From assembly GCA_017543025.1 (NCBI GenBank), contig JAFYGX010000209.1, forward strand, positions 1-29,628: DNA of 29,628 bases. Direction: 5' to 3'. Source of the stretch: Solobacterium sp. GTDB lineage: Bacteria > Bacillota_I > Bacilli_A > Erysipelotrichales > Erysipelotrichaceae. A model generated the notes under the pieces. It did not search any database. It had not been told where the DNA came from and saw only the letters and a program-made list of their open reading frames with translations. Below are positions 3,001 to 23,575 of this stretch, piece after piece. Position numbers and translations under genes: made by a program. Within the stretch, counting starts at the first letter, position 1. Each line of letters opens with the position of its first letter.

Positions 3001-6000
3001 CGTGCACTGAGTGCGGTGAGCTTTACTATTCCGGTTACGGTTCAGGTAACTGCAGTGCCTGGAGAATATGAGCTTGGAAATGGACTTGTCTTATCTGCCG
3101 TCAGTCCGAAGAACGCAAAGGTAACGATTGCTTCGGGAGAATATGATGCAGAAACTGATACGATTCAATATACCGTGACAGTGGAAGCGGAAGGTGATCT
3201 CACGGTGGAAGGAATTGATTATCCGGTAGTCATTACCGATCTTTCTGCAGGGAATACGCCAGCTGTGAGCTTTGTTTCAGGCAGCTATCTCTATACCCAT
3301 AAAGAAGGATTTGATCCTGAGCATGCAAGCAAAGTGAACGGGGAAGATGCAGTGATTGGTACGGAAACTGCATTTACCGGATTACCGGTAACCGTATCAC
3401 AGATGTATGGCGGAGATGTGATTACGCTTACGTATACCGCAAAGCCACTGAAAGGTACTTATATCGGAAACGAACAGGCTGAGATTACAAATACAGCCAC
3501 AATTGACAACCATAGAAATCCATACAACATTCCGACTGATGATACAGCTTCTGTTTCCAATACGGTTGCTTATCACACATTGAACCGGGAATATCTGACG
3601 CTGGACGGCAGCTGGGCATACTGGAGAGTTACGGTAAACCCGAGCGGTTATAAAATCAACAATGGCAGCGATCTCAAACTCGCAGATGTTTTTGATGATG
3701 GGGTCACAGGAGATGCAGAACAGTCAATTGACTACTCCAGCATCAAAGTGACAAGTGAAGCAGATATCAGCTATGACTACAGCGGAAGCACCGGTACATT
3801 TGTCATTCCGGATAGTACGGCTGTTACGATTACCTATCGCACACGGATCAAAGCTAATCCGGGCGATGCGAAACTGTTCCGCGGTACGGCACGGTTAACG
3901 GACCAGGATGGAACTGTGATTGCCACTGCAACGGCAGGCGTTACACAGGAACCGGTTGTTATTTACCCGAGTCCGACAGATGTGGACGGTCCGGTAAACC
4001 GCTATATGTTAAAGCTCTATGTCTATGCGGACGGGGCAATGCAGACGGGGATTGCGGGAGCGACATTTATCCTGAAAGACGCAAACCAGCGGGCAATTGA
4101 ATACAAGCTTGGTGACAATAAAGGTGAGCCCGTAACATTTACAACCGGAGAAAACGGGTATGTGAATATTGACCTGAACGAAGAACCGGGTGATGTATCG
4201 ATTCAGAAGAATACTGCCTACTATCTTGAAATGATGCAGGCCTTACCCGGTTACCAGAAAGACAACACGCTTTACAGCTTCATGATTACAGACGACCCGG
4301 ACTATGACGCCGGCGGGTTCTATACGTACTACAACGGCGATACGATGAAGGTAAGACTGTATCCGGCGGAACCCGGACTCAGTGTTTCCATACGCTTTTC
4401 CGGCAGCTATTCTCTGCGGGACGATCAGAAAAATGCTGTAGTCGCAATTCTGCAGAAGAAGGACGACCATAACAACTGGGTAGAAGTTGAACGCCACCCA
4501 TATACCGATACCAGATGGGGTTCCATCACATTTAATGAAGTTCTGTACGATGAAAATCTTGGTGTATATCAGAATGTTTACCGTGTGGTGGAAGAAAACC
4601 AGAGCCCGTGGGATCTGCCGGAAGACATAAATCTCACAACACATTATTACAGCATGGTGAATGCGGCTGAAGCAATGCCATACACAGAACCGCAGGATTT
4701 TTCAGTAGATAAAGCGAGTGACAGTGTAAGTGTGGTCATTGATAACCGCTATGAGGAATCACAGCTGACGATCGTCAAGATGAATAAGAGTACCGGAGAG
4801 GCACTCCCTGACGCTGAATTCTCGGTCTATCAGATTCTGAATGGACAGCAGACCGGCGAACCGGTAAAAACATATACAACCGATTCTGAGGGAACGATTG
4901 TGGTACGAGGCGGTGAAAGCTTTGAATCAGAAACACTGTATGGCATCAAAGAGACAGCTGCACCGGATGGCTATCTTCTGCCTCAGCACGAAGAATGGCA
5001 GTATTTCTATTTCTGTAACGATCCATATCTCGAACCGAGTATTCTGGCAAACCTTCCCGAAGGGGCAACCGCAGTCAATCTGACAAACTCCGGAGACAAG
5101 GTTACCGTTGACAACCAGAAAGAGATTATTGACATCCCGATCATGAAACTCTGGCAGGGTGGAACCTGGCCGGAGAATGCGGAAGTTGTGATCGGACTGT
5201 ACCGGCGCATTGAAGGCGAAGAAGAGGACCAGCCTGTTCTGAACCCGGATGACAGTGCACCGATGACGAAGACACTGACACAGGCAATTCCATACAATAC
5301 ATTTACCGGGCTTTATTCCAGAGATGAACAGGACCGCAATTACATTTATTCCATCAAAGAAGAAAGCATTAATGGTATTGATCCACTTGATGCAGGATAT
5401 GTACAGGAATACGGTATTTCCAGTGCCGGTGTATACATTGTTCGAAACAAGCCGGCAACCTCTCTTACCGTCCGTAAAGAATGGTATGACTTTTCAGGAA
5501 ACAGAATTGAAGATGAAACATTGCTGAGGGAACAGTCGCCGGTCACATTTGATGTGTACCAGTCTTCTGTGGCTTTTACAGACTCCACTACGGAAGATGG
5601 CGTTACCTATGAAGACCTCGCTGCGTTTACGGAGAGCTGTGAGAAGGTGCGTGAACATCTGACATTTGGTATGGATGATGGCTGGACGATGATGATTCGT
5701 GATCTGGATCAGCAGGATGATCTTGGCAATCGTTATTACTACTATGCACTGGAGGATATCCCTTCGTTTGGAACTGAACTATATGTGCTGGATGATGAGA
5801 ATGGAATCATTACCATTCAGAATCAGATCGCACCGGAGAATGTGAATCTGACGGTAACCAAAGCGGCGTTAGTGGAAGATCCAAGACCAGAGTCCTTAGA
5901 CAGAGACTTTGAATTTACGCTGAAGCTGACAGCCAACGGTCATCCGGTTCGCAGCTGGCAGGTATACACCGATTTAGAACACCCGGAAAATAATCTGGTG

Positions 6001-9000
6001 ACAGACTGGAACGGTGAAGTGAAATTCACGCTGAAGCCGACAAATCCGGATCAACAGCCAACGGAAGGAGCTTCCATCACCCTGAGTGTTCCGGTGGGGG
6101 TCAATGCGTCTGTTACCGAGACTGCAAATCCGGAATATACGGTCGAAACAGCAGCGACAGTATCTGGTGAGACCGGAGATAACGGGAGAACCTTTTCCTA
6201 TGGCACAGATAGTGAGGTTCCTGAAGTAACCCTTACCTATACCAACACCCTGCGTGTTATCTGCAAGGTAATCGATGATAACAATAACCAGACCCCGTTT
6301 GAGTCACTGAAAAGTGCTCTGAGATTTATTCATGACCATGCGGGCAGTTTCACTTCCCCATGGACCATCTATCTGCTGGAAGATTATGAGATTCCAGCAA
6401 CCGATGTGGTTACCGTGCAGGAGGGAGAGAGTCTGATCATAACCACCGCATCAACACAGGATTCGATGTTCCCGTTCCGTCCAGGAGAGGAAGAAGATCG
6501 CGGTGTTATTAAGCGCGGAGCGGTTTCCGGAAGCCTGTTTACGAACAACGGAACCCTGACGCTTGAAAACATCATACTCGATGGTAATAAAGACAACTTT
6601 ACCGCAGAAGGCGACGGTGGTCTGGTAAACAGTAACGGCACATTACATCTGAATCAGGACACGGTACTGCGCAATTCTGCAGCAAGCGGAAAAGGTGGTG
6701 CTGTGTGCGCGGCAGGCAGTGTTTATATTGCTGCGTCAGGCATTGAGATTACCGGCAACAGCGCTCCAAGTGCATCTGCCCTTTATTTGAATGGCACGCT
6801 TACCATGACGACAGGAATAATTAAGGGCAATACCGGTGCCAGAGATGGCGCAGTCGTCGTGGAAGCTGCGACAGACCGGATCAATCTGAATGGCAATCCA
6901 GTTATTTTCGGCAATACAGATGCACAGGGCAAAAATGCCAATCTCTACATCGGAGCTGACAGCGATAATATTCTGAATGTTGTTACTCCGGGTCTTACTG
7001 CAGATGCACAGATTGGCGTCACTGCCATGGAAGGGCATATGCTGATCGGGGAGCAGTTTGCGACCGCGGAATTTGAACAGACTGCAAATCTGAAATGTTT
7101 CGTAAATGATGCTTATGGCTATCGCGGAAAACTGAAAGACGGTACCTCTACGAACATCGTATGGGATGGTCTGACCATTACAATCAAAAAAGAATATGAA
7201 GGGCGTGGCGCCAGTGCCAATGATCGTTTTACGATTACCCTTTCATCGTCTTCAATCATCATGAGCAGCTATATCATTGACGGTACGCTTGATTACACGG
7301 TGACTGCAGCGAGACAGGGAAGACCGGGAAGAATTGTATTCCGCAATGTAAAAGCAGATGATGTGATCTCAATTTCTCCGCTGCCGGTAGGTGAATATAC
7401 CATTGCCGAAGAAGCGTCCAACTATACTCCGACTTATACCGGTAATGAAACAGGAAGCGAAACGCCTGTCACAATCGAAGGCGGTGTTTTCACTGCGGAA
7501 AATGACAGCACCATCACAGTAACCAATACACGCAGACTGGCACAGGTGAATTTCACAAAGATTCTGGAAGACAGACTGAAGTCGGAAACGGAAACGCAGG
7601 AGTTTGCATTTACTGTTTCATTGCACGAAGCAGACGGAACAGCAGTTTCCGGTTTTAAGCTTGCGGAAGGAATCACCACGAATGATAACGGTGATGCGTC
7701 CTTTACAATGTCTCCGTCAAACAGCGCGGATGATGAGAAGGTATTCACAGCACCGGTAGGCGTTACCATGGCGATCCGTGAAAAGAATGACTTAAATTAC
7801 AGAGTCATAGTTGAAGCGAAGACTTTGGAAAATGCAGCGATCAGTAATCTCGCAGAGGAATCTTCTGAACAGGATACGGTGTTCACGTTCCAGGTAAGTG
7901 ATGATGGAGCAGCCATCAAGTTTACCAATGAGCGGAAGATGGCAAATATCGCGCTTCAGAAGAGACTGATCAACAAAGTGTCTGAAACAGAATCCTTCAC
8001 GTTTACCATTACGCTTACCCGTGCGGATGGGAATCCTGCCGCCGGATATACGATGTACAAGGATGAGGAAGATCCGTCGAAAAATATTACGACAGATACT
8101 GCTGGAAAGGCAGCCATAAAGTTTGATTTTGGAAAAGGAGAATCGTTCAAGGATATTCAGCTCGACATTCCGGATGGCACAAAGCTGGAGGTCGCAGAAA
8201 CAGATGTTAACGGTCATCCTGATTTCTATGACACAACGTATTCCATTAATAACGGAACTGCACAACCTGGCACTAAAGCAACAATCAACACTGTCTCAGA
8301 TTCTGACAGCAGTATTGCCTTTACCAATACACGCAAAACGAAAACAATCGTTGTAAAGAACACTGTCAACGGCTACTCCGGCAACGTAGTGCCTTTCACT
8401 TACACTGCAACGGTAACTGACTGGAATAGTGAGGAGCCTAAACCTGAGAATTATGATGATTATAACGCCAATGACTTTATAAATGGTGTTATGACTTTTG
8501 AACTGACTACCGGCCAGACACAGACACTGACGGTTCCTTATGGTGCAGAGTTAACTGTGGCAGAAGGCTTTATTGTCGGGTATGGAACAACCGTAAAACG
8601 AGGCAGTGCAGCTGCAGTTGAGAAGTTGAGTGATACCTTCACTGTCACACGGGATACGGATATGCCGGCTTCTTCACCATTGCTGTTTACAAACAGTCAG
8701 CTGATCGGCTTACGGATTGTAAACAATACCTCATCCAAATTGGAGAATGTCACGATTACTGTCGACAAGAACAATATCTACCTTGTAAATGAAGACCAGA
8801 CCGGACAGGAGAGAATCAGCACCAATAAAACTGCGACCATCAGTGTTGACGCAGGAAAAACAGCGATTCTAGAAATCCAGCATGATACGTCTGTAACAGC
8901 GAGCCAGAGTTACAGTGTAAAAGGCACAACTCCTGCAGTCGGATACTATTACACTATCAACAATGAGCCTTCCTTCCATGAAACTGCAAATCCGGCAATT

Positions 9001-12000
9001 CTGCGGGTATATAATGCTTCAAATTATGAAGTAAAGGGTGAGCTTCGCTACAGTGTTCAGGATTCAACAGTCACCTTTACGGAACAGCCGCTGGTCAGCT
9101 TTGACTCCAACGGCGGTTTCTGGACCACTGAGATGGAAGGATATAAAGACCGGGATGGAGACCGCAGAGTATATCAGAAGCCGGTCACAAGCGGAGAAAA
9201 GGTTGCCCGTCCATCTCCGGATCCGGTATATCCGACTGCAGAAGAGATTGGATTCCTTGGCTGGACAGTTGATGAAGACTTTGCCAATGCTTCTCATGCT
9301 GCAGGAGAGGATATCTCTGCCAAAGCATATGACTTTGAAAATACTCCGGTAACTGAGCCTATCACGCTTTATGCAGTGTGGGCAAAACCAGCACGTGATG
9401 AACGCGTTGTAACGGTTAAGAACGGGACAGCGGAAATAATGGATGTCACTGTTACATTGACGAAGAATGGCAGTCCGGTTTCGAGACATGTGATTTATAC
9501 AGATCCGCAGAATCCAGACTCGAAAATAACCACAAATGATAATGGAATTGCGACAATCGGCATCCCTGCCGGAGAGAGCAGAAACCTGACCGTACCGGAT
9601 CAGGTGAACGCTGTTTTCAGTGTGGAAAATGAAACCTTGGCAGTATCTTCGCAGTATGAGCTGATTGCTTCTGATGATAATAAATCGTATACGATCGCTT
9701 CTGTAAACAGAGATGGTACCGTTACCTTTATTCCTGGTGTCTGCAAGATTACTGACGCTGCTGGAAATGTTCTTTATGACAACAACGGTAAGACGGCGGT
9801 TTATGCGACCCTTTCTGCAGCGTTTACTGCATATGGCGGAACGCTGTATACAGATGCATCTCATACCACTGCAGGAACGCAGGCATATGTGAAGATGCTG
9901 GTGGATGAGTATACCATCACAGAAACTGTGCCCATCACTTTCCCGAGTAAGCCTATGACATTTACCACTGCAGGGAAAGATGACGATGACTTCCCTTATG
10001 TTGGTTCACGGACCCGCAGTGCGATTTACAGATCTATGGAGGGAGCTAATAATAACTGCTTTATCGCAGGTGCTGGCAATACTACGCTTACAGATATCAT
10101 TCTTGATGGTGGCAGCGAGTATGGAGTGAAAATTGCAAAAGCAAAAAACGGCGGCTTGATCTATATGAACAATGACGCCGGAATACTCAATGTCACGGAA
10201 GGGGCAACACTGCGTAATTGTGAATTTGCGGTTTATGATGACGGAAATAACAGCCGCGGTGGCGCGATTTACATGACAAAAGGCACGCTGAATGTTGATG
10301 CAGGTCTGTTCTCCAATCTCCATGCCTATCAGGGTGGTGCGATCTGTGTAACAGGCGGCACGATGAATGTCACCGGAACAGCGGGAAGCACAAAGTTTGA
10401 AGACTGCAGCTCTGAAAAACAGGATGGCGGTGCCATCTACTATAACAGGGCAAAAGATGTTGTCATTGACGGCGGTACGGATAAAGATAACCCCGGAATC
10501 ATCTTTACAAGATGCGTGGCTGCGTATACGAACGGTACAGGAGATGGAAGTGATGGCGGCGCAATTTTTGCCACGTCGAACTATACGAATACCGTAACGG
10601 TGAAGGGATGTTCCTTTGTTGAATGCAGTGCCAGGACTGGAAACAAAGAGTCAACATCAGGTTACGGTGGCGGCGGTATCTGTGCGTACAAGGTGAAAGG
10701 ACTCACTGTAGAAGCGTGTACGTTTGAAGACTGTGATACCCTCTGCGGCGGCGGTGCGATTGCGGCAATTGTCAAATATACAGAGACCGTTGAAAACGAA
10801 ACCGTCACGGTTAAGAATAGTGACTTCAACCGATGCAACTGCAAGGGTCAGGCCGGTGCACTGGGAGTCTATCAGGATAATAATGGTGCGACAAACAGCG
10901 CAACGAAGCTGTCTGTTATTGACAGTACCTTTGATCATTGCTCGAGCGGCACCAACAACGGTTCCGGCGGAGCGATTCAGTGCTATCTGCCATGCATGGA
11001 ATTTTCCGGCAGCACCTTTACGGATTGCTGGGCCGGTAAAGAAGGCGGAGCTGTGAATAACTTCTTCGGCAGCAATTATACAGCAGTGTGGGGAAAATCC
11101 TCTATGACTGTTACAAACTGCAGATTTATCCGCTGTCGTGCAGAAGACCGGTACGATACCTCGGCGGTGCAGCATTATGGCGGCGGCATCAATACCAAGG
11201 CTAAGACGGTGACTGTGACCGGCAGTTATTTTGAAGACTGCGTATCCACATTGAGAGAAGGAGGTGCACTTCATATCGGCGGCCAGGGAGGCGGCAGTAA
11301 GGCAACAATTACCGGCAGCACCTTCAAAAACTGTTCTGCGAAGAATGGCGGTGGTGCAGTGCTTTCTTCTCACGAAACATTGGAAATCAGTACGTCAAAT
11401 TTCTACGGCTGCTCTTCCTCCGCAAGCAATGGCGGTGCGGTATATCACACCAGAAACAGCAGAGGGGATTCGGAACAGGGAACTACAACGATAACGGAAA
11501 GTATATTTGGTATTGACCCGAAAGATGAAGGAAGCCTGGGCTGCAGTGCGGTACAGAACGGCGGTGCAATCTGGACGAGGGCTGCTACGTATTCTATTAC
11601 TGACTGCACGATCAATAATTGTTCGGCAAATAACGGCGGTGCAATATATCTGGATAATGAAAAAACAGCAGGGCAGTCTGGCACAATCACTGACGGCAGC
11701 ATTATTGACTGCCAAGCTGTAAAAGGCAGCGCAATCTATGTTGAAAACAAAGCAACATTCAGTGGTGAGCTCAATGTCTCTGGCAATACTGTTTCCGATA
11801 TCAACGACGGTGCAATACACGGAGGAAAACTTTACTTTGAGGGCAATGTGAAGGTGGAAAACAATAGCTGTAGCGCTGATTCCACTTACAATCATGACGT
11901 TCTCATGCAGAACAACAATGCCACTACTATCTATACAACAAGCAACGGCTTAGAGGAAATGGCCAATATCGGAGTCTATGTGCCAGACAGCGTGTTCAAC

Positions 12001-15000
12001 AATCGTGGTCTTGAGGGAAAAGCTTTCGGTACTTATGACAACGGTGAAGGCAGCAGTGGCAGTAACTATCTGGATGCTTTCTTTAATAACCGTGACAGCG
12101 AACTATACGGTTATCAGGCATCTACGACTGACACTAATATCTATTGGGGCATCTATATCTGCAAAATTACAGATGAAGAAGGCAACACACTTAAACGAAC
12201 TAATGGCAGAGACGCGATCTATCCTAGAATCAACCTTGCACTTGAGGAGTTCAATACAGTTACTGGTGGGAAACCCGTCTATGTGAAGATGCTGATTGAA
12301 AACTACAATCTCGGGCAGACAGCGCAGATCGAGAATTTCCCTGATGCAAATATCACTTTGACCACGGAAACTCATACAGATAAAAAACCGGTAGAAGGTG
12401 AATATGATGGGAAGCATCCTTACCGCGGTAAGGAAGGTACTTTCTGCACGATTTCTCGCACTAACAGCACTAATCAGCTTTTTAAACTGAATAATGAAAA
12501 TGCTACCTTTCAACTCAGAAACATTACCCTGGATGGACGCAAGGATAAAACCACTGAAAAGGGTAACTTCAGACTGATCGAGGTCGCAAGCGGTAATCTC
12601 TTTATCAACCGTGGTACGACCATGCAGTATGGTGCCGCAAGCAACGGCGGTGCAATTGAGGCGGCAGCTGATGCTCAGGTTACAATCAATGGTGAATATG
12701 ACGCCGATACGAAAGAGCCGACGGTCAGGTTTATAAACTGTACCGTAACCGGCAATAAACCAAATGGCGGGGCAATCAGAGCTTACGATCTGACCATCAA
12801 AAACAGTTCTAATAATAAAGGCGAGTATGGTACAGCTTTTATCAGCTGCAGTGCGTATAATGGCGGTGCGATCACCTCACTCGGATCGAGCATGGAAATT
12901 AATGGTGTTTACTTCGAGGATTGCCATACTACGTCCGCAGGCGGTGCAATCTACCATAACAATTCAGCTGCTGATACGACAACCACGGTTAAAAACAGTG
13001 CGTTTGAAAACTGCAGGACGAACGGAAACAACTGGGCCCATGGCGGCGCAATTGAAGCCAGAACTGCAGTCCTGAACGTAGAAGACTGCTCATTTAACGA
13101 TTGCCAGGCCACCTCGGACGGCGGTGCGGTTTATCATGGATTCGTGGATGGAAACAACAAACCATCCGGCAACCGGGATAAAACCTTAATAAAAAACACT
13201 TCCTTTACCGGATGCGCTACCAGTGGAACAGATACCGGCTACAATTATGGCGGCTCGGTATACACCCAGGCTAAGACGGCAGAAGTAATCGACAGCAGCT
13301 TCCTGAACAGCACAGCCACCAATCATGGCGGTGCGCTGTACTGTCAGACCAGCGTGGCAGATTCCGATGTGATCATTTACGGCACAAGATTTCTGAATTG
13401 TTCCACATCCCGTAACGGAGGTAATGGCGGTGCAATCTACACCAACTCCAAAGCCCTCACCCTGCAGAAGAATGGAACTGCAGAAACAACCATCAGTTCC
13501 TGCTCTGCGCCTGGTTACAGCGGTGCAGTACATATGGCGAACAGCGGCAGTGTGCTGAATGTCAAGGATGGTACGGTGATCAGTAACTGCTATGCCAATA
13601 AAGGCGGTGCAATCTATCTTCTTTCCGATGTAACGATGAATCTTACGGAGAGTCCGGAATTCAGAGAGAATGGCTATACAACGCAAAGCGGAAGTATTGT
13701 CGATGCGGAAGCAGGCGCGTGCATTTATCTCTCGGAGGGAAGCAGAATCAATCTTTCCGGAAGTCCGAAGTTCAGCAGAAACATTCTGTCGAATCAGCCA
13801 AGAATCACCAACGGCGGTATTACAGACTTTGTACGCCAGGATATCTATCTGGCGGGTTATGCTGGAACTTCCGCAACGTCGATCTATGTTGTCGGTGAGC
13901 TTACCGGCGATACCATCTGGGTATGGCCGGAACAATCACCTCACAGACTTCCGAATGAACAGTTTGCGAAGATTGATGATGAAGTTACTGTCAGTGATGA
14001 AACGCTGAGTCATCTCAGAAACTCTCTTGCAGATAATGTGACCCATTGCGAGTATGGCGAATATCTGGCTGGCGTTCAGCTTGGTGAAGGAAACAAGAAT
14101 GTCTACTGGGATAAGATGTATACCGTTTCCTTCAAGAAGATCGACAACAAGGGTGTAACGGTACCCGGTGCCGGTTTTACTTTTTACAAAGATATGGCAT
14201 GTAAAGAGGTGGTTGGATCTGCCGACTCTGCAGACGGAGAAACTGATACGGATGCACAGGGCAAACTCCTTCCAAGAGGTACCGTAGAGTTTACATCCAT
14301 CCGAATCGGCGCTTACTACATGAAAGAGACCGGAGTACCGACCAGTTTTAAAGAAAATGATGCGACCTATATCGTGCTGGTAGGTACACCGTATTTAGCA
14401 CCGAATGATGACAACAGATATCTGTGGGAGAATGGAGGGCCACTTGATGTGCCTGACGCCGCAACCCTGGTTGCCCGGCATACGACCGATGCCGGTAAAT
14501 ACTACGGTATTTTCCCGCTGGATGAAAACAACAAAGCAGTGCTTCGTGCCAATCTTGCCAGCAACAGTGTAGGTATTGTGAATATCCGCAACGACTATCA
14601 GGTCAGCTTCATGAAAACGGACAGTGATGGTAAAGCATTGCCTGGCGCAGCGTTTACAATCTACACTCAGATTCTTGACAGTGAAGGGAATCCGGCTGCT
14701 TTTGAAGACGGTTATCCGGAGCTGATGCTTTGGAGCCGGGATGGCGAGACGTATCCTGCTCCGGTGGTATCGGCAGATGGCACTGCAGCATATAAAGATG
14801 TAAACAACAATACACTCCCGAAGGGAATGGTATATTTCCGTGAGCTTCCGCTTGGCACCTATTATCTGCTTGAGACCGATTATCCGGAACGTAACGGTGA
14901 TGGACGCCGTACCTATTATGCGGAGAGTGATCGTGTTTTCAGACTGACGGTGGAAGAGGATACTGAATCACCGGATAACATCAAATCAACACTCAGTGAA

Positions 15001-18000
15001 TGGGTTCCAAGTACAGATGGCACACAGAGATATGATGAGATTGAAAAGACGGAAGGCTATTACACCGTTTCCAATAATGAAGTAGTATGCAAGCTGACAG
15101 ACGCAGATAATAACCTGCTCTATACCGAAGGACATGCAATCCGGGAAAACAAGTCTTCCACAGCGACCACAAGACTGTTCCCGGCAGTTTACGGAACGCT
15201 GGAAGAGGGATTTAATTCTGCACAGAATGGAACGTTTGTCTATAAAGACAGAACAGCGGCTGTTGCAGGTGAACTGAAGCTGAAGGTACTGAAGGACTTT
15301 ACGATTTCACGACCGGTAACCTACATCAGTGAGCGTAAGATTACCTTTACAACCGCTGAAACCACCAGAACAAAGGATGACCGGTATATCTTCAGCACTA
15401 CGCGTACAACCGATACGTCCAGAGCTCTGATTCGCCGCAGCTACAGTGAAGATGGTTCGGCAAATGCAAATGACGGCGCATTGATTACCCTTTCTCGGGG
15501 TGCAGATATGACCCTGCAGAACATTCGGCTGAACGGGCAGAAAACAAACTATAACGGCAGAGCGATCCATGTGACAGATGGTAGTTCTCTTACGATACAG
15601 AGTCATACACAGATTGAAAACTTCAGACAGGAAGCGGCAGCAGACAGTGCCGGTGAAAGTGATCTCAAGGGAGGCGCAGTCCTGCTGGAGGACAATACAA
15701 ATCTCACAATTGACGGCGGCTACAACCGTACAGCCATTTTCACCGGAAATGAGGTTGTGAATCATCGCACTGCAGGTAATACAGGGTCTGACGGCGGTGC
15801 AATCGCTGTCGGTGCAGACTGTACCTTCCGTATCACGAATGCGCAGTTCAGCAGTAACCGCGCCGTCTCTGATGCAGAAAAGAAAGGCAATGGCGGTGCT
15901 GTAAGCATCAATAAAACAAAAGAAGCTGCAGACCAGCTTGATCTAGAGATTTACAATGTGGTCTTTACAGGCAACTCAGCAAGCTATAAGGGCGGTGCAG
16001 TCCGTACTGCAGAGAATTGTAATCTTACAGTAAACAACTGCACCTTCAGTTCCAACACTGCTGTAAATGAAGGCGGCGCAATTGCCGTGCTGTCCAAGGC
16101 AGAAACACCTTCCAGCCTGACAATTACCAACGGTACAACCTTTACAGGAAATACTGCGGCGTCGGGCGGAGCGGTACGGATCGGCGGAAACGGAACACTG
16201 AATCTGAATCATGTAACGATGAGAAACAACAGCGCAACCGAAAATGGCGGTGCGGTTTCCGCAGCACCTGCGGCAGTCGTAACCTTTACCAGCGGCACCA
16301 TTGCCGGCAATACTGCAGTACTCGGAAGCGCACTTTATGCAGAAGATGGTGCTTCAGTTACCATTACGAATGCCAGCATTACCGGCAATACCGCAAGCGG
16401 TACCATTGGCGGAGCCATCAATATTGGCGGTAACAACGCAAGACTCTATTTTGGTGGGAATCCGACGGTGTTCGATAACTTCGGGGAAGGCGATAATGTT
16501 CAGCAGAAAAACCTGATTCTGAGTGAAGATACCAATGCGATCATCAATACAACCGAAGATGGTCTGCAAGGCGGCATCATCGGCGTATATGTGATTGAAG
16601 ACAACGGAAGCGTATTTGAAGAACATGGTCTGCCTGGCAAACCATTCGGCACCTTCGGTGACGCAGGCCATCTGAAACCGGAAGTCTTCCGCAATGATCA
16701 CAGCCTGGCGCTCTATGGAGTAAAGAAAGATAGCGATAACAACATCTACTGGGTCGATGTTCTCTGCAAGCTGACGGATGCGAATGACAATATCCTTTAT
16801 CAGGACATCCGTCTCACGATCAACGGAGAGACACAGATCCGCAAAGGGCAGGCGGTTTATGCACGGATCACCACGGCAGACGGCGGTACAGCAGAAGACG
16901 GCTTCAACGTATTGCTCAACGGATTTGAAGTTGCACAGAATACCGGAACATCCGCGAACAGGCTTTATTCCAGAAACGGAACAAGTTTCTCCGTGATTGC
17001 GAACAGCGATCCGATCAGGCTGAAAATGCTGAAAGACTATAATCTGGAAAAGAGCATTGTTCATACCGGAAGTACAAGAAGCGTAACTTTCACAACTGCA
17101 GAACAGTATGCAGATCTGACGGATGCGATGAAGGCCAGGGGTGATTACTTCTCCTACAGCACTGATCGTACAGACGGAAACGGAAATCCGGAAACCAGTG
17201 CATTGATTTCACGTGCGTTTAACGGAGACTCGATGATAACAGCCTCCGGGCAGAATCTGACGATTGCCGGCATCATACTGGATGGCGCAAGGACCAGCTA
17301 TCAGTCAACAGCGAATGGCGGTATTGTTCATGTCAGCACGAATGGCATACTGACTGTGACAGACGGTGCGGTATTGCGGAATTCCATTACAACCGGAAAT
17401 GGTGCAGGAATCTGGCTGGAGTGGACAGATGCTGAGAATCATGCAGTATTGAACCTCTCCGGCAATCCAAGCTTTGGCGGAACTGACCGAGTAGGTGGCG
17501 AAGGAACCGACAAGGATAATCTGAAAGGAACAGAAGGCAACTTTGTTCGGAAAGATGCAAGGTTTAAAACAGGCGATACCGAACCGGCCAACGGCGGAAA
17601 GCAGTACCCGAAGGAAAACAACACCAGCTACTATCTGGTTCGTCAGGATATCTACATCTCCGGAACACCGATTACACCAATCGATACAGCGAAACCGCAT
17701 TCCGCAATTCATGTGACCGGGAACCTGATCTCCGGTGATGGCACAATCTGGGTATGGGCAGACAATGTGAATCATTATGAAATGCTCAAACAGTTTGCGA
17801 TGTTCAGTGAGGGAGGAACCGGCTTAAGTGATGTGGAAAAGGACACCAGCATGCGGGCGTTCCGCAACGCACAGCCTGACAGTGTGACAAACTGCGGCGG
17901 CGATTATCTGACAGGCCAGAAAGGTGAAGTGAAAGACTGGATCTACTGGACTGGCGGATTTGATGTCGTATTTGTAAAGACGGACAGCTTTGGTGTCGGT

Positions 18001-18870
18001 CTGCCAGGAGTTGAATTTACGCTTTATTCTGATGAAGCGTGCACCACTCCGTTTGAAATGACTTTCACAGGCAGCACACCTGCAACAGGTGACGGCAAGC
18101 GTGCCACCACAGTCTCCAGTGATGGAACAGCGACTTATAAAGATAAGAATGGCAATACAGTCACACTCGTAAAGGGTGAGGTCCTGCTGGCCAAGGTACC
18201 TCCGAAAACGTTCTATCTGAAAGAAACATCTGTACCGGACGGATTCAACCGTGTGGAAAATAGCCAGGGGACAAACCAGGAGATTAATAAGAATCAGGTT
18301 TATCAGGTTAATGTGCTTGGAACCGGAGAGTTTACGATTAAGAAGAAGGGAACAGATGGTCAGTATTCGGAAGAAGTCTATAAAGAGAAACGCCGTGAGG
18401 TGACCGTCAATGGACAGACGACAGATCTCATTCAGTATGTCATTCTGAATATCCCGGAAGCAGAACGGAAGGTGGTACTGCGAAAGATTCATCTGGAAGG
18501 CGAAGGGGAAGATAAAGAACATCTTTCACTTGAAGGAGCGACATTTGAAGTCTTACGGTATGACCGGACGCCGGTAAAATCAACCAACAGCGAAGGAGAA
18601 ACCGTGACAGAATTTACCAGCGGCGCATCTGGTGTATATTTCATTGATACATTGCCGTATGGGCTGTACTATCTCCATGAGAAATCCGTTCCATCTGGTT
18701 ATCAGACAATTACAGCAGATAAAGACGGTACTAAGGATGGCAACTGGTTTATTCTGATAGTGAATAAGAACGGAGCCGGCTACATAACGAAACCGGTACA
18801 GGGAATCCCTGATTATGAAAACGGAACTCCGCTTTATACGATTACAGCTCCGGAAACAGTAAAACCCTGA
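1..18870 (+). CDS. Giant modular surface/secreted protein, 5'-truncated by window edge (BspA-like LRR, SpaA/Cna-B, InlB-like and Pmp-like beta-helix modules)
   Basis: The frame is open from base 1 with no convincing start (the GTG at 10 has no ribosome binding site), so the true N-terminus and any signal peptide lie upstream. Counting residues from GTG 10, the order is: paired modules (about 1-432); a BspA-like leucine-rich block (about 437-770, opening with VLTISGTGAM); a third copy of one paired module (790-868); Ig-like regions; a SpaA domain near 1582-1657 (YGIKETAAPDGY); a Cna-B-like domain (from about 1708); beta-helix module 1 (2085-2387); further Ig-like repeats; an InlB-type repeat (about 3029-3125); beta-helix modules 2-5 (3245-4046, 4051-4700, 5027-5581, 5586-5980); and SpaA-like domains after modules 3 (two) and 5 (two). 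The likely role is adhesion or another extracellular function. SpaA and Cna-B families often form Lys-Asn isopeptide bonds. The C-terminus (ITAPETVKP) has no LPxTG, membrane helix or basic tail, so how it is held on the cell is unclear. No frameshift is seen over 18.9 kb. Confidence 0.9.
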   Translation: MNAVVSSTPIYADYYTFHISVSEEKEEGYEVSIVFPQTVKGNDYRLFFVENEEVTEIKDGTVDTTGEEGDPEAAGFSFHTDRLGEFVFACTKTYEYQIPEGSLVYEVTKDEPVSLREVLVSSEMVSEEDADLFVTYVTEVTSQDPEAVKVELLNEEECMITPSAMFSETSLTVTMEDGQSGTITVKDTREHQPVEEDGGIEAAVSNPEDEEIESIVIKPAEDKLLPKDAESTAKVVEGSASIEKIAADAEQKKGNPEAVTEYKVFDIDLENVKKEDYNGFHVELTLSEAGAVSGGEYKLYHIKDDGTYEAVPVEVKTRKDEAGNEVADTIVFTTPSFSEFVLAYTVDFHWGDYTYSIDGESEITLSALLEKLNVTEITITDVTDVSFTNPEYIEITKTEPDWVLRSLKTFNTEEKLTLSLKNGKSVEIKVTDESAGESGTWTNGNNGSGTWAVDEDGVLTISGTGAMKDYTTNNKWVSETPWFDYIVKDSTHPNPSVTKIVITGGITRIGTNSFTRTYNLNEIDASDCTSLTTIGGSAFKQQSSGSASNNPNNPKIINFSGCSNLSTIETDAFRDCKKIDSIDISGTKLNASVLTTSGAGFGSSKTAIQTLKANNCTSITGALDLSEYTSLTTLELSGCSGITSLTLPASVTTLDISGCVNLDSLELSACTNLTTVKAGNRSDLTDLSWLTLPSSVTTLDVSGFTSLTSITVPTSVTSLNASGCTGITALDLSSTSLSSIDVSDNHALTALKIPASVNSLNITGCSNVVIYFDGTSSSLPENLIPDSVPLISWGDYSYSIPRFSSVTLQEIFTALGITGITAENDVQSISASDDSILQIDGLTVKNLTLFEQPQTLTITLKSGISGSIKVELLPLTESDDLNQFTDDQTSYSYEGDTRSYPLTEAAALKEGDHLSLSLSFSEVPDGTEGARQMALLEPMTYTFPAGLTVTDVPETIMFSSGNRNDNESFELSVTRSTDPDTGAQILELTGEFNDAQKEAIRALSAVSFTIPVTVQVTAVPGEYELGNGLVLSAVSPKNAKVTIASGEYDAETDTIQYTVTVEAEGDLTVEGIDYPVVITDLSAGNTPAVSFVSGSYLYTHKEGFDPEHASKVNGEDAVIGTETAFTGLPVTVSQMYGGDVITLTYTAKPLKGTYIGNEQAEITNTATIDNHRNPYNIPTDDTASVSNTVAYHTLNREYLTLDGSWAYWRVTVNPSGYKINNGSDLKLADVFDDGVTGDAEQSIDYSSIKVTSEADISYDYSGSTGTFVIPDSTAVTITYRTRIKANPGDAKLFRGTARLTDQDGTVIATATAGVTQEPVVIYPSPTDVDGPVNRYMLKLYVYADGAMQTGIAGATFILKDANQRAIEYKLGDNKGEPVTFTTGENGYVNIDLNEEPGDVSIQKNTAYYLEMMQALPGYQKDNTLYSFMITDDPDYDAGGFYTYYNGDTMKVRLYPAEPGLSVSIRFSGSYSLRDDQKNAVVAILQKKDDHNNWVEVERHPYTDTRWGSITFNEVLYDENLGVYQNVYRVVEENQSPWDLPEDINLTTHYYSMVNAAEAMPYTEPQDFSVDKASDSVSVVIDNRYEESQLTIVKMNKSTGEALPDAEFSVYQILNGQQTGEPVKTYTTDSEGTIVVRGGESFESETLYGIKETAAPDGYLLPQHEEWQYFYFCNDPYLEPSILANLPEGATAVNLTNSGDKVTVDNQKEIIDIPIMKLWQGGTWPENAEVVIGLYRRIEGEEEDQPVLNPDDSAPMTKTLTQAIPYNTFTGLYSRDEQDRNYIYSIKEESINGIDPLDAGYVQEYGISSAGVYIVRNKPATSLTVRKEWYDFSGNRIEDETLLREQSPVTFDVYQSSVAFTDSTTEDGVTYEDLAAFTESCEKVREHLTFGMDDGWTMMIRDLDQQDDLGNRYYYYALEDIPSFGTELYVLDDENGIITIQNQIAPENVNLTVTKAALVEDPRPESLDRDFEFTLKLTANGHPVRSWQVYTDLEHPENNLVTDWNGEVKFTLKPTNPDQQPTEGASITLSVPVGVNASVTETANPEYTVETAATVSGETGDNGRTFSYGTDSEVPEVTLTYTNTLRVICKVIDDNNNQTPFESLKSALRFIHDHAGSFTSPWTIYLLEDYEIPATDVVTVQEGESLIITTASTQDSMFPFRPGEEEDRGVIKRGAVSGSLFTNNGTLTLENIILDGNKDNFTAEGDGGLVNSNGTLHLNQDTVLRNSAASGKGGAVCAAGSVYIAASGIEITGNSAPSASALYLNGTLTMTTGIIKGNTGARDGAVVVEAATDRINLNGNPVIFGNTDAQGKNANLYIGADSDNILNVVTPGLTADAQIGVTAMEGHMLIGEQFATAEFEQTANLKCFVNDAYGYRGKLKDGTSTNIVWDGLTITIKKEYEGRGASANDRFTITLSSSSIIMSSYIIDGTLDYTVTAARQGRPGRIVFRNVKADDVISISPLPVGEYTIAEEASNYTPTYTGNETGSETPVTIEGGVFTAENDSTITVTNTRRLAQVNFTKILEDRLKSETETQEFAFTVSLHEADGTAVSGFKLAEGITTNDNGDASFTMSPSNSADDEKVFTAPVGVTMAIREKNDLNYRVIVEAKTLENAAISNLAEESSEQDTVFTFQVSDDGAAIKFTNERKMANIALQKRLINKVSETESFTFTITLTRADGNPAAGYTMYKDEEDPSKNITTDTAGKAAIKFDFGKGESFKDIQLDIPDGTKLEVAETDVNGHPDFYDTTYSINNGTAQPGTKATINTVSDSDSSIAFTNTRKTKTIVVKNTVNGYSGNVVPFTYTATVTDWNSEEPKPENYDDYNANDFINGVMTFELTTGQTQTLTVPYGAELTVAEGFIVGYGTTVKRGSAAAVEKLSDTFTVTRDTDMPASSPLLFTNSQLIGLRIVNNTSSKLENVTITVDKNNIYLVNEDQTGQERISTNKTATISVDAGKTAILEIQHDTSVTASQSYSVKGTTPAVGYYYTINNEPSFHETANPAILRVYNASNYEVKGELRYSVQDSTVTFTEQPLVSFDSNGGFWTTEMEGYKDRDGDRRVYQKPVTSGEKVARPSPDPVYPTAEEIGFLGWTVDEDFANASHAAGEDISAKAYDFENTPVTEPITLYAVWAKPARDERVVTVKNGTAEIMDVTVTLTKNGSPVSRHVIYTDPQNPDSKITTNDNGIATIGIPAGESRNLTVPDQVNAVFSVENETLAVSSQYELIASDDNKSYTIASVNRDGTVTFIPGVCKITDAAGNVLYDNNGKTAVYATLSAAFTAYGGTLYTDASHTTAGTQAYVKMLVDEYTITETVPITFPSKPMTFTTAGKDDDDFPYVGSRTRSAIYRSMEGANNNCFIAGAGNTTLTDIILDGGSEYGVKIAKAKNGGLIYMNNDAGILNVTEGATLRNCEFAVYDDGNNSRGGAIYMTKGTLNVDAGLFSNLHAYQGGAICVTGGTMNVTGTAGSTKFEDCSSEKQDGGAIYYNRAKDVVIDGGTDKDNPGIIFTRCVAAYTNGTGDGSDGGAIFATSNYTNTVTVKGCSFVECSARTGNKESTSGYGGGGICAYKVKGLTVEACTFEDCDTLCGGGAIAAIVKYTETVENETVTVKNSDFNRCNCKGQAGALGVYQDNNGATNSATKLSVIDSTFDHCSSGTNNGSGGAIQCYLPCMEFSGSTFTDCWAGKEGGAVNNFFGSNYTAVWGKSSMTVTNCRFIRCRAEDRYDTSAVQHYGGGINTKAKTVTVTGSYFEDCVSTLREGGALHIGGQGGGSKATITGSTFKNCSAKNGGGAVLSSHETLEISTSNFYGCSSSASNGGAVYHTRNSRGDSEQGTTTITESIFGIDPKDEGSLGCSAVQNGGAIWTRAATYSITDCTINNCSANNGGAIYLDNEKTAGQSGTITDGSIIDCQAVKGSAIYVENKATFSGELNVSGNTVSDINDGAIHGGKLYFEGNVKVENNSCSADSTYNHDVLMQNNNATTIYTTSNGLEEMANIGVYVPDSVFNNRGLEGKAFGTYDNGEGSSGSNYLDAFFNNRDSELYGYQASTTDTNIYWGIYICKITDEEGNTLKRTNGRDAIYPRINLALEEFNTVTGGKPVYVKMLIENYNLGQTAQIENFPDANITLTTETHTDKKPVEGEYDGKHPYRGKEGTFCTISRTNSTNQLFKLNNENATFQLRNITLDGRKDKTTEKGNFRLIEVASGNLFINRGTTMQYGAASNGGAIEAAADAQVTINGEYDADTKEPTVRFINCTVTGNKPNGGAIRAYDLTIKNSSNNKGEYGTAFISCSAYNGGAITSLGSSMEINGVYFEDCHTTSAGGAIYHNNSAADTTTTVKNSAFENCRTNGNNWAHGGAIEARTAVLNVEDCSFNDCQATSDGGAVYHGFVDGNNKPSGNRDKTLIKNTSFTGCATSGTDTGYNYGGSVYTQAKTAEVIDSSFLNSTATNHGGALYCQTSVADSDVIIYGTRFLNCSTSRNGGNGGAIYTNSKALTLQKNGTAETTISSCSAPGYSGAVHMANSGSVLNVKDGTVISNCYANKGGAIYLLSDVTMNLTESPEFRENGYTTQSGSIVDAEAGACIYLSEGSRINLSGSPKFSRNILSNQPRITNGGITDFVRQDIYLAGYAGTSATSIYVVGELTGDTIWVWPEQSPHRLPNEQFAKIDDEVTVSDETLSHLRNSLADNVTHCEYGEYLAGVQLGEGNKNVYWDKMYTVSFKKIDNKGVTVPGAGFTFYKDMACKEVVGSADSADGETDTDAQGKLLPRGTVEFTSIRIGAYYMKETGVPTSFKENDATYIVLVGTPYLAPNDDNRYLWENGGPLDVPDAATLVARHTTDAGKYYGIFPLDENNKAVLRANLASNSVGIVNIRNDYQVSFMKTDSDGKALPGAAFTIYTQILDSEGNPAAFEDGYPELMLWSRDGETYPAPVVSADGTAAYKDVNNNTLPKGMVYFRELPLGTYYLLETDYPERNGDGRRTYYAESDRVFRLTVEEDTESPDNIKSTLSEWVPSTDGTQRYDEIEKTEGYYTVSNNEVVCKLTDADNNLLYTEGHAIRENKSSTATTRLFPAVYGTLEEGFNSAQNGTFVYKDRTAAVAGELKLKVLKDFTISRPVTYISERKITFTTAETTRTKDDRYIFSTTRTTDTSRALIRRSYSEDGSANANDGALITLSRGADMTLQNIRLNGQKTNYNGRAIHVTDGSSLTIQSHTQIENFRQEAAADSAGESDLKGGAVLLEDNTNLTIDGGYNRTAIFTGNEVVNHRTAGNTGSDGGAIAVGADCTFRITNAQFSSNRAVSDAEKKGNGGAVSINKTKEAADQLDLEIYNVVFTGNSASYKGGAVRTAENCNLTVNNCTFSSNTAVNEGGAIAVLSKAETPSSLTITNGTTFTGNTAASGGAVRIGGNGTLNLNHVTMRNNSATENGGAVSAAPAAVVTFTSGTIAGNTAVLGSALYAEDGASVTITNASITGNTASGTIGGAINIGGNNARLYFGGNPTVFDNFGEGDNVQQKNLILSEDTNAIINTTEDGLQGGIIGVYVIEDNGSVFEEHGLPGKPFGTFGDAGHLKPEVFRNDHSLALYGVKKDSDNNIYWVDVLCKLTDANDNILYQDIRLTINGETQIRKGQAVYARITTADGGTAEDGFNVLLNGFEVAQNTGTSANRLYSRNGTSFSVIANSDPIRLKMLKDYNLEKSIVHTGSTRSVTFTTAEQYADLTDAMKARGDYFSYSTDRTDGNGNPETSALISRAFNGDSMITASGQNLTIAGIILDGARTSYQSTANGGIVHVSTNGILTVTDGAVLRNSITTGNGAGIWLEWTDAENHAVLNLSGNPSFGGTDRVGGEGTDKDNLKGTEGNFVRKDARFKTGDTEPANGGKQYPKENNTSYYLVRQDIYISGTPITPIDTAKPHSAIHVTGNLISGDGTIWVWADNVNHYEMLKQFAMFSEGGTGLSDVEKDTSMRAFRNAQPDSVTNCGGDYLTGQKGEVKDWIYWTGGFDVVFVKTDSFGVGLPGVEFTLYSDEACTTPFEMTFTGSTPATGDGKRATTVSSDGTATYKDKNGNTVTLVKGEVLLAKVPPKTFYLKETSVPDGFNRVENSQGTNQEINKNQVYQVNVLGTGEFTIKKKGTDGQYSEEVYKEKRREVTVNGQTTDLIQYVILNIPEAERKVVLRKIHLEGEGEDKEHLSLEGATFEVLRYDRTPVKSTNSEGETVTEFTSGASGVYFIDTLPYGLYYLHEKSVPSGYQTITADKDGTKDGNWFILIVNKNGAGYITKPVQGIPDYENGTPLYTITAPETVKP
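280..561 (+). repeat. N-terminal B module, copy 1 of the giant protein
   Basis: This is the first copy of a module of about 80-95 residues. It starts with alternating aromatics (YEYQI), continues with VSLREVL and a V-x-S-x-DP-like stretch, and ends TLTVTL/xGTITVKD-like. It is preceded by a short beta-rich stretch ending GEFVFACT. Copies at 1048-1296 and 2377-2613 follow the same plan. Family not recognised. Confidence 0.55.
1048..1296 (+). repeat. N-terminal B module, copy 2 of the giant protein
   Basis: This copy starts WGDYTYSI, continues ITLSALLEKL and ends KLTLSLKNGKSVEIKVTD. The preceding stretch ends SEFVLAYT, matching GEFVFACT before copy 1, so the repeated unit is a two-domain pair (A plus B). 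The BspA-like leucine-rich block follows directly. Confidence 0.6.
1315..2330 (+). repeat. BspA-like leucine-rich repeat block within the giant protein
   Basis: The block opens with the GTW...DGVLTISGTGAM signature that commonly precedes LRR_5 (BspA/TpLRR) repeats. About a dozen short repeats follow, of the form LTxLxLSGCxxITSLxLPxSV. It is framed by B-module copies 2 and 3. LRR_5 blocks of this type occur in adhesins of oral and gut bacteria. Confidence 0.75.
2377..2613 (+). repeat. N-terminal B module, copy 3 of the giant protein
   Basis: This copy starts WGDYSYSI, nearly identical to the start of copy 2, then VTLQEIFTALGITGI, and ends TLTITLKSGISGSIKVEL. It lacks the A-type partner and sits directly after the leucine-rich block, so the LRR block appears to sit between copies 2 and 3. 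Confidence 0.6.
6262..7170 (+). repeat. Beta-helix module 1 of the giant protein
   Basis: The module starts at the Cys of CKVIDD. It carries the shared entry strand (WTIYLLEDYEIPATD then LIITTAS) and the rung LENIILDGNK, and ends at NIVWDG. It has Asn-type rungs (LRNSA, ITGNSA) and one GGAV. It is the first of five modules with the same plan, and lies about 2.6 kb upstream of module 2. Confidence 0.65.
9094..9384 (+). repeat. InlB-type beta-repeat (Listeria-Bacteroides repeat) in the giant protein
   Basis: The sequence VSFDSNGG near the start, a GEKVARPSPDP middle, GFLGWTVDED and the end ITLYAVW are the landmarks of the InlB B-repeat family, a small beta-grasp-like domain common in Gram-positive surface proteins. 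Only one copy is seen. Confidence 0.75.
9742..12147 (+). repeat. Beta-helix module 2, Cys-ladder, Pmp-like GGAI repeats
   Basis: The largest of the five beta-helix modules, about 800 residues. It starts CKITD, carries the entry strand YVKMLVDEYTI...MTFTTA and the rung LTDIILDGG, and ends NIYWG. I count about 12 exact GGA(I/V/L) motifs. Most rungs have Cys at the position where modules 1 and 4 have Asn (FEDCSS, FTRCVA, FDHCSS, FTDCWA, FKNCSA, FYGCSS). About 28 Cys fall in this module, very high for a Bacillota exoprotein. Confidence 0.75.
12160..14109 (+). repeat. Beta-helix module 3, Cys-ladder, Pmp-like GGAI repeats
   Basis: About 650 residues from CKITDEEGN to NVYWD. It carries YVKMLIENYNL...ITLTTE and LRNITLDGRK, about nine GGA(I/V/L) motifs and Cys-type rungs (FINCTV, FISCSA, FEDCHT, FENCRT, FNDCQA, FTGCAT, FLNCST). 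It starts only four residues after the end of module 2, so the two probably form one continuous long helix. Confidence 0.7.
14119..15060 (+). repeat. Two SpaA-like domains between beta-helix modules 3 and 4
   Basis: Two successive domains begin VSFKKIDNKG and VSFMKTDSDG, continue PGAGFTFY and PGAAFTIY, and end YYMKETGVP and YYLLETDYP. The early Lys and the late Glu in YYxxET are the usual positions of the isopeptide-forming Lys and its catalytic acid in SpaA/prealbumin-like domains. The partner Asn was not confirmed. Confidence 0.75.
15088..16752 (+). repeat. Beta-helix module 4, Asn-type Pmp-like GGAI repeats
   Basis: About 555 residues from CKLTDADNN to NIYW. The entry strand is LKVLKDFTI...ITFTTAE and the rung is LQNIRLNGQK. 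I count about eight GGA(I/V) motifs, here with Asn-type partners (FSSNRA, FTGNSA, FSSNTA, FTGNTA, MRNNSA, ITGNTA). This is the arrangement closest to the chlamydial Pmp GGAI/FxxN pair. Confidence 0.75.
16765..17949 (+). repeat. Beta-helix module 5 of the giant protein, degenerate
   Basis: It starts CKLTDANDN, carries LKMLKDYNL...VTFTTAE and IAGIILDGAR, and ends WIYWTGG. It has the same entry and exit landmarks as modules 1-4 but no exact GGA(I/V) motif (only NGGIVHV) and few rungs. Confidence 0.6.
17956..18867 (+). repeat. Two C-terminal SpaA-like domains of the giant protein
   Basis: The first starts VVFVKTDSFG with PGVEFTLY and ends FYLKETSVPDGF. The last starts VVLRKIHLEG with LEGATFEVL and ends YYLHEKSVPSGY. 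The stop codon comes about 40 residues after that motif. In related proteins this is where a linker, LPxTG, helix and basic tail would follow; none is present. Confidence 0.75.
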
Positions 18871-23390: not shown

Positions 23391-23451
23391 GTTTATCCTC
23401 CAGGTTGTGATTGGTCCACAGCCGTTATAGCATACTGTGATGACCCTATTC

Positions 23452-23480
23452 ATTATAACGGGCGTATAGAAAAACATCGA
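23452..23480 (-). promoter_or_regulatory. Candidate promoter for the three-domain wall enzyme
   Basis: On the minus strand a perfect TATAAT (23457-23452) lies 17 bases from TCGATG (23480-23475, 3 of 6 matches to TTGACA). The expected start near 23445 gives a leader of about 55 bases to the chosen ATG. Confidence 0.5.
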
Positions 23481-23575
23481 ACACCCGTAATGGAGATACG
23501 TTCCTGTATGCATGTATCTGAAGATGATGAAGTTTCTGCGTTTAAACCAACAGCTTGTACTACAATAAATATGTT

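Follow-up and report, generated by a model that had tools for sequence, protein, structure and literature searches.

A cysteine ladder is reportedly present in InlJ, where it lies in the leucine-rich repeats (LRRs) that form an extracellular solenoid of a Bacillota protein. In the chlamydial Pmp proteins, the Asn of the FxxN repeat is described, in the accessible part of an AlphaFold study, as an asparagine ladder inside the helix (PMC10715098). A Cys ladder also occurs in the crystal structure of the fucoidan lyase FdlA, a β-helix in which, according to the available sections of the report, five Cys residues are stabilizing and not catalytic (PMC9410043). The window analysed here, a stretch of 29,628 nucleotides from Solobacterium sp. 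(contig JAFYGX010000209.1), contains a giant exoprotein open reading frame (ORF; 1–18870, + strand) of 6,289 residues, which is open at its 5' end at the window edge and ends in TAPETVKP. Within this one chain there are Cys rungs of the form FxxC..GGA in β-helix modules 2 and 3, and Asn rungs of the form FxxN..GGA in module 4 (residues 5250–5463). The Cys of modules 2 and 3 probably constitutes a buried free-thiol ladder that replaces the Asn ladder and would lock rung to rung and stiffen a surface rod in an anaerobic habitat.

With the chlamydial Pmp passenger (PF02415, TIGR01376) the window protein has in common GGA[ILV] after the Phe-xx-ladder motif, variable loops between motifs and a predicted right-handed β-helix. 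It differs in having Cys as the ladder residue in modules 2 and 3 (Asn in module 4), and in being a giant protein with SpaA-type and LRR domains; the autotransporter barrel PF03797 was not among the Pfam matches of four pieces covering window positions 1–18867. Modules 2 and 3 (P0001, residues 3248–4703) matched none of the Pfam or NCBIfam families at E 0.001, PF02415 and TIGR01376 included, probably because these repeat models want FxxN. The C-terminal piece with module 4 passes the cut-offs of both PF02415 (32.4 versus 20.6 bits) and TIGR01376 (24 versus 15 bits). Since the Cys modules fail both on the ladder residue and on the model cut-off, they are treated here as a variant of the Pmp-type β-helix and not as a member of PF02415.

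FdlA, as far as the available sections describe it, shares a Cys ladder at the turn–strand junction of a right-handed β-helix, which in the window protein is predicted from a model; it differs in having five rungs, in being an enzyme and in belonging to another helix family, whereas the window protein has 14 and nine rungs and a residue choice that extends across many relatives. The InlJ ladder belongs to an LRR fold and not to a β-helix, although the LRR of the window protein itself also has Cys at a ladder-like site. Proteins of Methanoregula, Methanolacinia and Streblomastix show the same FxxC..GGA pattern, but have other domains where these are listed (PEGA, PKD) and come from other domains of life. 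Cys ladders are therefore already known singly, from FdlA and, by title, from InlJ, and the new element would be the FxxC variant of the Pmp-type β-helix; a literature search, largely of papers open without subscription, found no description of FxxC Pmp-type ladders or of an all-or-none choice.

Ladder motifs in the giant protein

The core of module 2 (10168–11775, + strand) has 25 Cys in 536 residues, including 14 ladder Cys (10405–11712; residues 3469, 3505, 3542, 3578, 3612, 3647, 3676, 3712, 3747, 3778, 3804, 3848, 3874 and 3904). The core of module 3 (12448–13680, + strand), delimited from sequence, has 11 Cys in 411 residues, nine of them in the ladder (12739–13590; residues 4247, 4283, 4308, 4338, 4368, 4405, 4467, 4501 and 4530). 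Together the two cores hold 36 Cys in 947 residues, against 31 in the 5,342 residues elsewhere (67 in the whole ORF), an approximately seven-fold enrichment in odds (Fisher P=1.5e-13). The ladder of module 4 (15358–16500, + strand) is made of Asn at residues 5250, 5286, 5325, 5352, 5384, 5437 and 5463, module 1 (6262–6990, + strand) has few rungs, of the IxxN/LxxN form, and the fifth module has only two Cys in 496 residues.

An earlier note, made from the sequence of this DNA alone, had drawn attention to the Cys motifs FEDCSS (3466), FTDCWA (3673), FKNCSA (3775), FENCRT (4335) and FNDCQA (4365), all of which were found, and to about 28 Cys in module 2, which agrees with the 28 counted in residues 3248–4000 (a further 15 lie in 4001–4703). 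It had also placed Asn at the rung turn of modules 1 and 4; the motifs it cited, FTGNSA (5322) and FSSNTA (5349), exist, but both lie in module 4, and module 1 has ITGNSA (2250). The single stack over about 1450 residues that it envisaged resolves instead into two runs of 14 and nine rungs (3469–3904 and 4247–4530), with a linker and Cys-poor sequence between them.

There is in addition a second Cys site, C-[ST]-F, two residues before the Phe, which is occupied by Cys in some rungs of both types. Among the relatives described below, Cys occupies this site in approximately 11% of rungs of the Cys type and 15% of those of the Asn type, without an all-or-none choice.

Predicted structure and rung register

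AlphaFold2 (AF2) models were made for one Cys segment, module 2 (mean predicted local distance difference test score, pLDDT, 86.5; predicted template modelling score, pTM, 0.90), and one Asn segment, module 4 (mean pLDDT 85.9, pTM 0.88), and the register was read from DSSP. At 12 of the 13 regex-matched ladder sites of the module 2 model there is a strand at the Phe or Ile, a two-residue break ending at the Cys, and then a new strand; four further matches at C-[ST]-F sites were set aside in this count, and the single miss is model residue 18. Seven of the 11 matched sites in the module 4 model have the same register, and the other four (IRLN, LTVN, IGGN and LNLN) do not. The proposal that Cys occupies the position of the Asn ladder is borne out by this common register, and the models place both residues at the same turn of a predicted right-handed parallel β-helix. 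The consecutive coils with Cys at one core position that characterize the FdlA ladder may have a counterpart here, at the 12 of 13 sites with this register.

VIA-align gave long alignments of the module 2 model to β-helices in the PDB. By sequence, no PDB chain was matched by P0001 at E≤10, and profiles A4 and A2 had only matches with E 0.085 or weaker among solved structures. The top Foldseek matches have a low TM-score (0.19 at rank 1, with a root-mean-square deviation of 21.9), which weighs against the assignment of the fold.

In the predicted fold the ladder side chains would point inward, and each thiol would cap the turn in place of the Asn side chain and pack on the thiols of neighbouring rungs.

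Conservation among close homologues

A genome scan identified eight loci, L001–L008. Seven are from metagenome-assembled genomes (MAGs) labelled Clostridiales, Ruminococcaceae, Oscillospiraceae or Oscillibacter, and one is from an Atopobiaceae MAG of yak jejunum. Three of the seven MAGs come from sheep rumen or goat reticulum according to their record titles; the other four have RUG isolate names, which we take to denote rumen.

The ladder is strongly conserved. Over the 14 and nine ladder columns, with 13 of the 14 homologues covering each module, Cys occupies 138 of 148 cells in module 2 and 105 of 110 in module 3, or 243 of 258 overall. In an alignment of 14 homologous stretches (excluding P0007, which lies on the same contig as L003, and P0010, which is too distant), mean identity to the window residues is 84% for Cys, 79% for Phe, 75% for Gly and 52% for Asn; it is 91% for Trp, of which there are eight residues. 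The module 4 block is all Asn in the eight loci and modules 2 and 3, where present, have mainly Cys, as scored with the pattern [FI]..[CN], which also catches some non-ladder Asn.

Choice of ladder residue among relatives

Three protein searches, all with Cys-type queries, yielded 254 relatives beyond the window's own entries P0001 and P0002, which were excluded from the statistics; two of the searches contribute the best 120 of 1,893 and the best 120 of 4,353 matches. Rungs were counted with an anchor on Phe only, because the patterns [FI]..[CN] and [FILVM] also match occasional Asn residues next to the rung Cys (as in FTNC). Of these relatives, 230 have six or more C+N rungs and were typed, and the 24 below this number were dropped.

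The choice of ladder residue is close to all-or-none: 127 proteins are Asn-type (at most 20% Cys), 82 are Cys-type (at least 80%) and 21 lie between. By tenths of C/(C+N), the 230 proteins number 114, 12, 3, 2, 0, 4, 3, 10, 16 and 66. The ladder attains 0.907 of the maximal between-protein variance, compared with at most 0.452 for 12 other residue pairs (S/N at −3, the most lineage-like) and 0.384 for C/S at −2. This is not a matter of overall Cys content, as Cys outside the ladder and −2 sites amounts to 0.0101 per residue, equal in the 82 Cys-type and the 127 Asn-type proteins.

Where the two residues are mixed, like letters cluster: in 31 mixed proteins, 339 of 449 adjacent pairs are alike, versus 304±6.5 after shuffling, with a maximum of 326 in 2,000 shuffles. 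Mixed Cys/Asn ladders may pack less well. A mixed ladder is also seen in P0029 (Capsaspora), a protist protein that bears the name of a TKL kinase, in which NNNNCCCCNNN has a block of four Cys within Asn rungs.

A pattern of this kind might arise by neutral inheritance of repeats, the ladder letter reflecting only the ancestral rung that was duplicated, with Cys and Asn equivalent. Several observations favour this or weigh against the thiol ladder. Tandem repeats spread through duplication, and the change from Asn to Cys takes two base changes, so inheritance alone would slow mixing. The masked nearest neighbours of the 82 Cys-type proteins are mostly of the same type, being Asn-type for only seven and mixed for seven. 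Many Cys-type matches, furthermore, look like one methanogen lineage and, with Cys-type queries and so few Asn-type neighbours, independent origins may be few.

Neutral inheritance nevertheless seems rather unlikely. When rungs of the same protein are compared outside the Phe and ladder positions, identity is only 23% for the Cys type and 20% for the Asn type (first 143 relatives, of which 138 have at least six Phe rungs), which indicates that the ladder is maintained as the remaining sequence diverges. The within-protein excess of identity amounts to 0.250 at the ladder, and none of 15 other sites exceeds 0.084 (248 proteins and 5,225 rungs, six of the 254 having been dropped because they had fewer than six Phe rungs). 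Single-step deviations to Ser and other residues do occur. N/G pairs at other sites, which are likewise two steps apart, attain only about 0.25, counter to an explanation by two base changes. In addition, within one polypeptide the last module remains Asn and modules 2 and 3 remain predominantly Cys in the loci that contain them.

Weighting by cluster was rejected for these statistics, as clustering of the relatives at 35% identity collapsed them to four components, 227 in one. Alignment A1, with 3,415 columns from mixed-in full-length proteins, was also set aside.

State of the thiols

Three states of the Cys stack had been proposed: free thiols, a disulfide-stiffened rod or a metal-binding array. 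In the second, disulfides between Cys of neighbouring rungs would run along the stack, and oxidation outside the cell would lock the rod. This exported repeat is Cys-rich, and joint loss of neighbouring pairs of ladder Cys is seen in P0003/P0004 and L005/P0006, as paired disulfides would also predict. Isolated losses, in which the neighbouring Cys are kept, are found in six homologues (L002, L004, L006, twice, P0006, P0008 and L007). An apparent even-number signal in run length, as expected from disulfide pairing, was dropped after a shuffle control: Cys-rung runs have no preference for even length (0.643 versus 0.627±0.034 in shuffled data). In-register parallel rungs give poor disulfide geometry.

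Disulfide-forming machinery other than DsbB (PF02600) was sought in nine genomes, the eight behind L001–L008 and G515, all of which may be incomplete. Thioredoxin_4 and VKOR were each found in none of the nine, and DSBA in two, one of them over the cut-off. The same searches in 14 control genomes found Thioredoxin_4 in nine, VKOR in three and DSBA in eight. The DSBA-family match in the host genome G002 is strong (E 1.1e-34) and speaks for oxidation of the ladder. On balance, a disulfide rod is disfavoured and appears quite unlikely.

In the third state, the thiols would coordinate metal ions or bind sulfide or persulfide along the rod. A regular line of thiols is indeed predicted by the module 2 model. 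CxxC is absent from residues 3248–4703, however, in which there are two CxxxC and one CxC, and Asn stands at the ladder site in many relatives. In the published Pmp models, as presented in the accessible part of that study (PMC10715098), the equivalent position belongs to the core. A metal or sulfur-ligand array, with no supporting motif in the modules, is thus very improbable.

Of the three states, the free-thiol stack fits best. The isolated losses, the lack of an even-length preference, the lack of VKOR and Thioredoxin_4 in the nine genomes and the lack of CxxC make a reduced, buried thiol ladder the most likely, in which the ladder thiols would stay reduced. Exported proteins of obligate anaerobes reportedly tend to exclude cysteine, according to the part of the source available (PMC12453122). 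Against that tendency, the protein analysed here retains Cys at a single structural position in successive rungs and shows no sign of disulfides.

Distribution and a possible link to oxygen

An organism name was listed for 31 of the 254 relatives. Named Cys-type proteins (at least five scorable rungs, 80% or more of them Cys) come from Methanoregula (six), Methanolacinia (two), Streblomastix (three) and a Lachnospiraceae MAG (one). Named Asn-type proteins (at most 20% Cys) comprise ten from Methanobrevibacter, Methanosphaera, Methanobacterium and other Methanobacteriales, and one each from Thermoguttaceae, Chloroflexota, Acidimicrobiia, Planctomycetota, Kiritimatiellales and the algae Bryopsis and Heterococcus. 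One protein from Oscillospiraceae, which belongs to the same family as the window protein, has 9 C to 3 N. The Cys ladder is therefore no peculiarity of one Bacillota exoprotein, as had been supposed, since it recurs in methanogenic archaea, the flagellate Streblomastix and Lachnospiraceae. The Cys-type lineages are presumably strict anaerobes (Streblomastix from the termite gut); the ten Methanobacteriales proteins of the Asn type also come from anaerobes.

Within Bacillota, profile A2 had matches in seven of the 299 genomes searched at phylum level and in 18 of the 247 at order level, in all 24 distinct genomes. Cys dominates in only two of these, G001 (a host of the family) and G515, each with at least five Phe rungs; Asn dominates in seven (four or more rungs), and 15 have too few rungs to be classed, including G180 with 2 C to 1 N. 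The expectation that Cys rungs are not routine in Bacillota holds for these sampled relatives. PF02415 is N-biased as a survey model, matching three of the 299 Bacillota genomes and two of the eight host genomes.

In Actinomycetota, the Cys-type profile A5 matched 60 of 396 genomes, of which 41 have COX1 and 19 lack it. With one locus per genome, 11 loci have four or more rungs, all Asn-type (eight with COX1 and three without), and 49 are too short. The only pure Cys string among the 60, CCC over three rungs, is in G007 (a host of the family), which lacks COX1. This pattern is consistent with a role of oxygen but is no test of it.

It is conceivable, although we consider it doubtful, that Pmp-type β-helices come in two ladder dialects, each rod segment being committed to either Asn or Cys. 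The Cys version would be an anaerobe's buried thiol rod, common to archaea, bacteria and anaerobic protists. Such a rod could be used only where oxygen is absent and would be converted by air, which would make it an oxygen-triggered switch of rod stability as well. FxxN or FxxC before GGA provides a two-letter signature for asking whether ladder chemistry follows oxygen exposure. The two types also represent a natural experiment, in which one stacking residue of a repeat scaffold is swapped for another.

Domain organization and neighbouring genes

Pfam matches on the four pieces of the giant ORF include an LRR near the N-terminus, SpaA-type domains (PF17802) in the N- and C-terminal pieces, three stretches of DUF7601 N-terminal to module 2, and Chlam_PMP repeats late in the ORF. 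The domain order, size and relatives suggest that the giant protein forms a loop-presenting fibre that is secreted or lies at the surface. In this fibre the Cys ladder would serve as structure and not as an active site, and the rod may present its exposed loops as an adhesive fibre. Less favourable to this view, secretion and surface location are predicted from domains and relatives, the N-terminus of the giant ORF lying outside the window. In the homologue L002, the N-terminus can be read as a hydrophobic, signal-like stretch. At the C-terminus of the giant ORF there is no LPxTG, transmembrane stretch or charged tail, despite the SpaA-type domains; the last 60 residues of the ORFs at L001–L005, L007 and L008 likewise lack LPxTG, and L006 runs off its contig.

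The LRR segment (1453–2370, + strand; Pfam LRR_5/EndoS LRR), aligned with L001 and L005, has nine Cys in 306 residues. Its LxxL..SGC repeats have Cys at a ladder-like position and form a second Cys-ladder candidate, of another solenoid type, in the same chain; in L005, the LDVSGC-type repeats form a longer run. The same preference may thus exist in two solenoid types of one chain.

No Rfam match was obtained at the gathering threshold. Downstream of the giant gene in L005 (19607–24601) there are several small genes encoding prepilin-like N-termini, and two of the five scanned match the N_methyl motif. The equivalent position in the window is occupied by genes for two tetratricopeptide repeat (TPR) proteins. 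Further along, on the − strand (21495–23513), a single frame of 672 residues joins wall-building and wall-cutting domains, with an endolysin-like domain, a peptidoglycan transglycosylase and a phage-type lysozyme domain.

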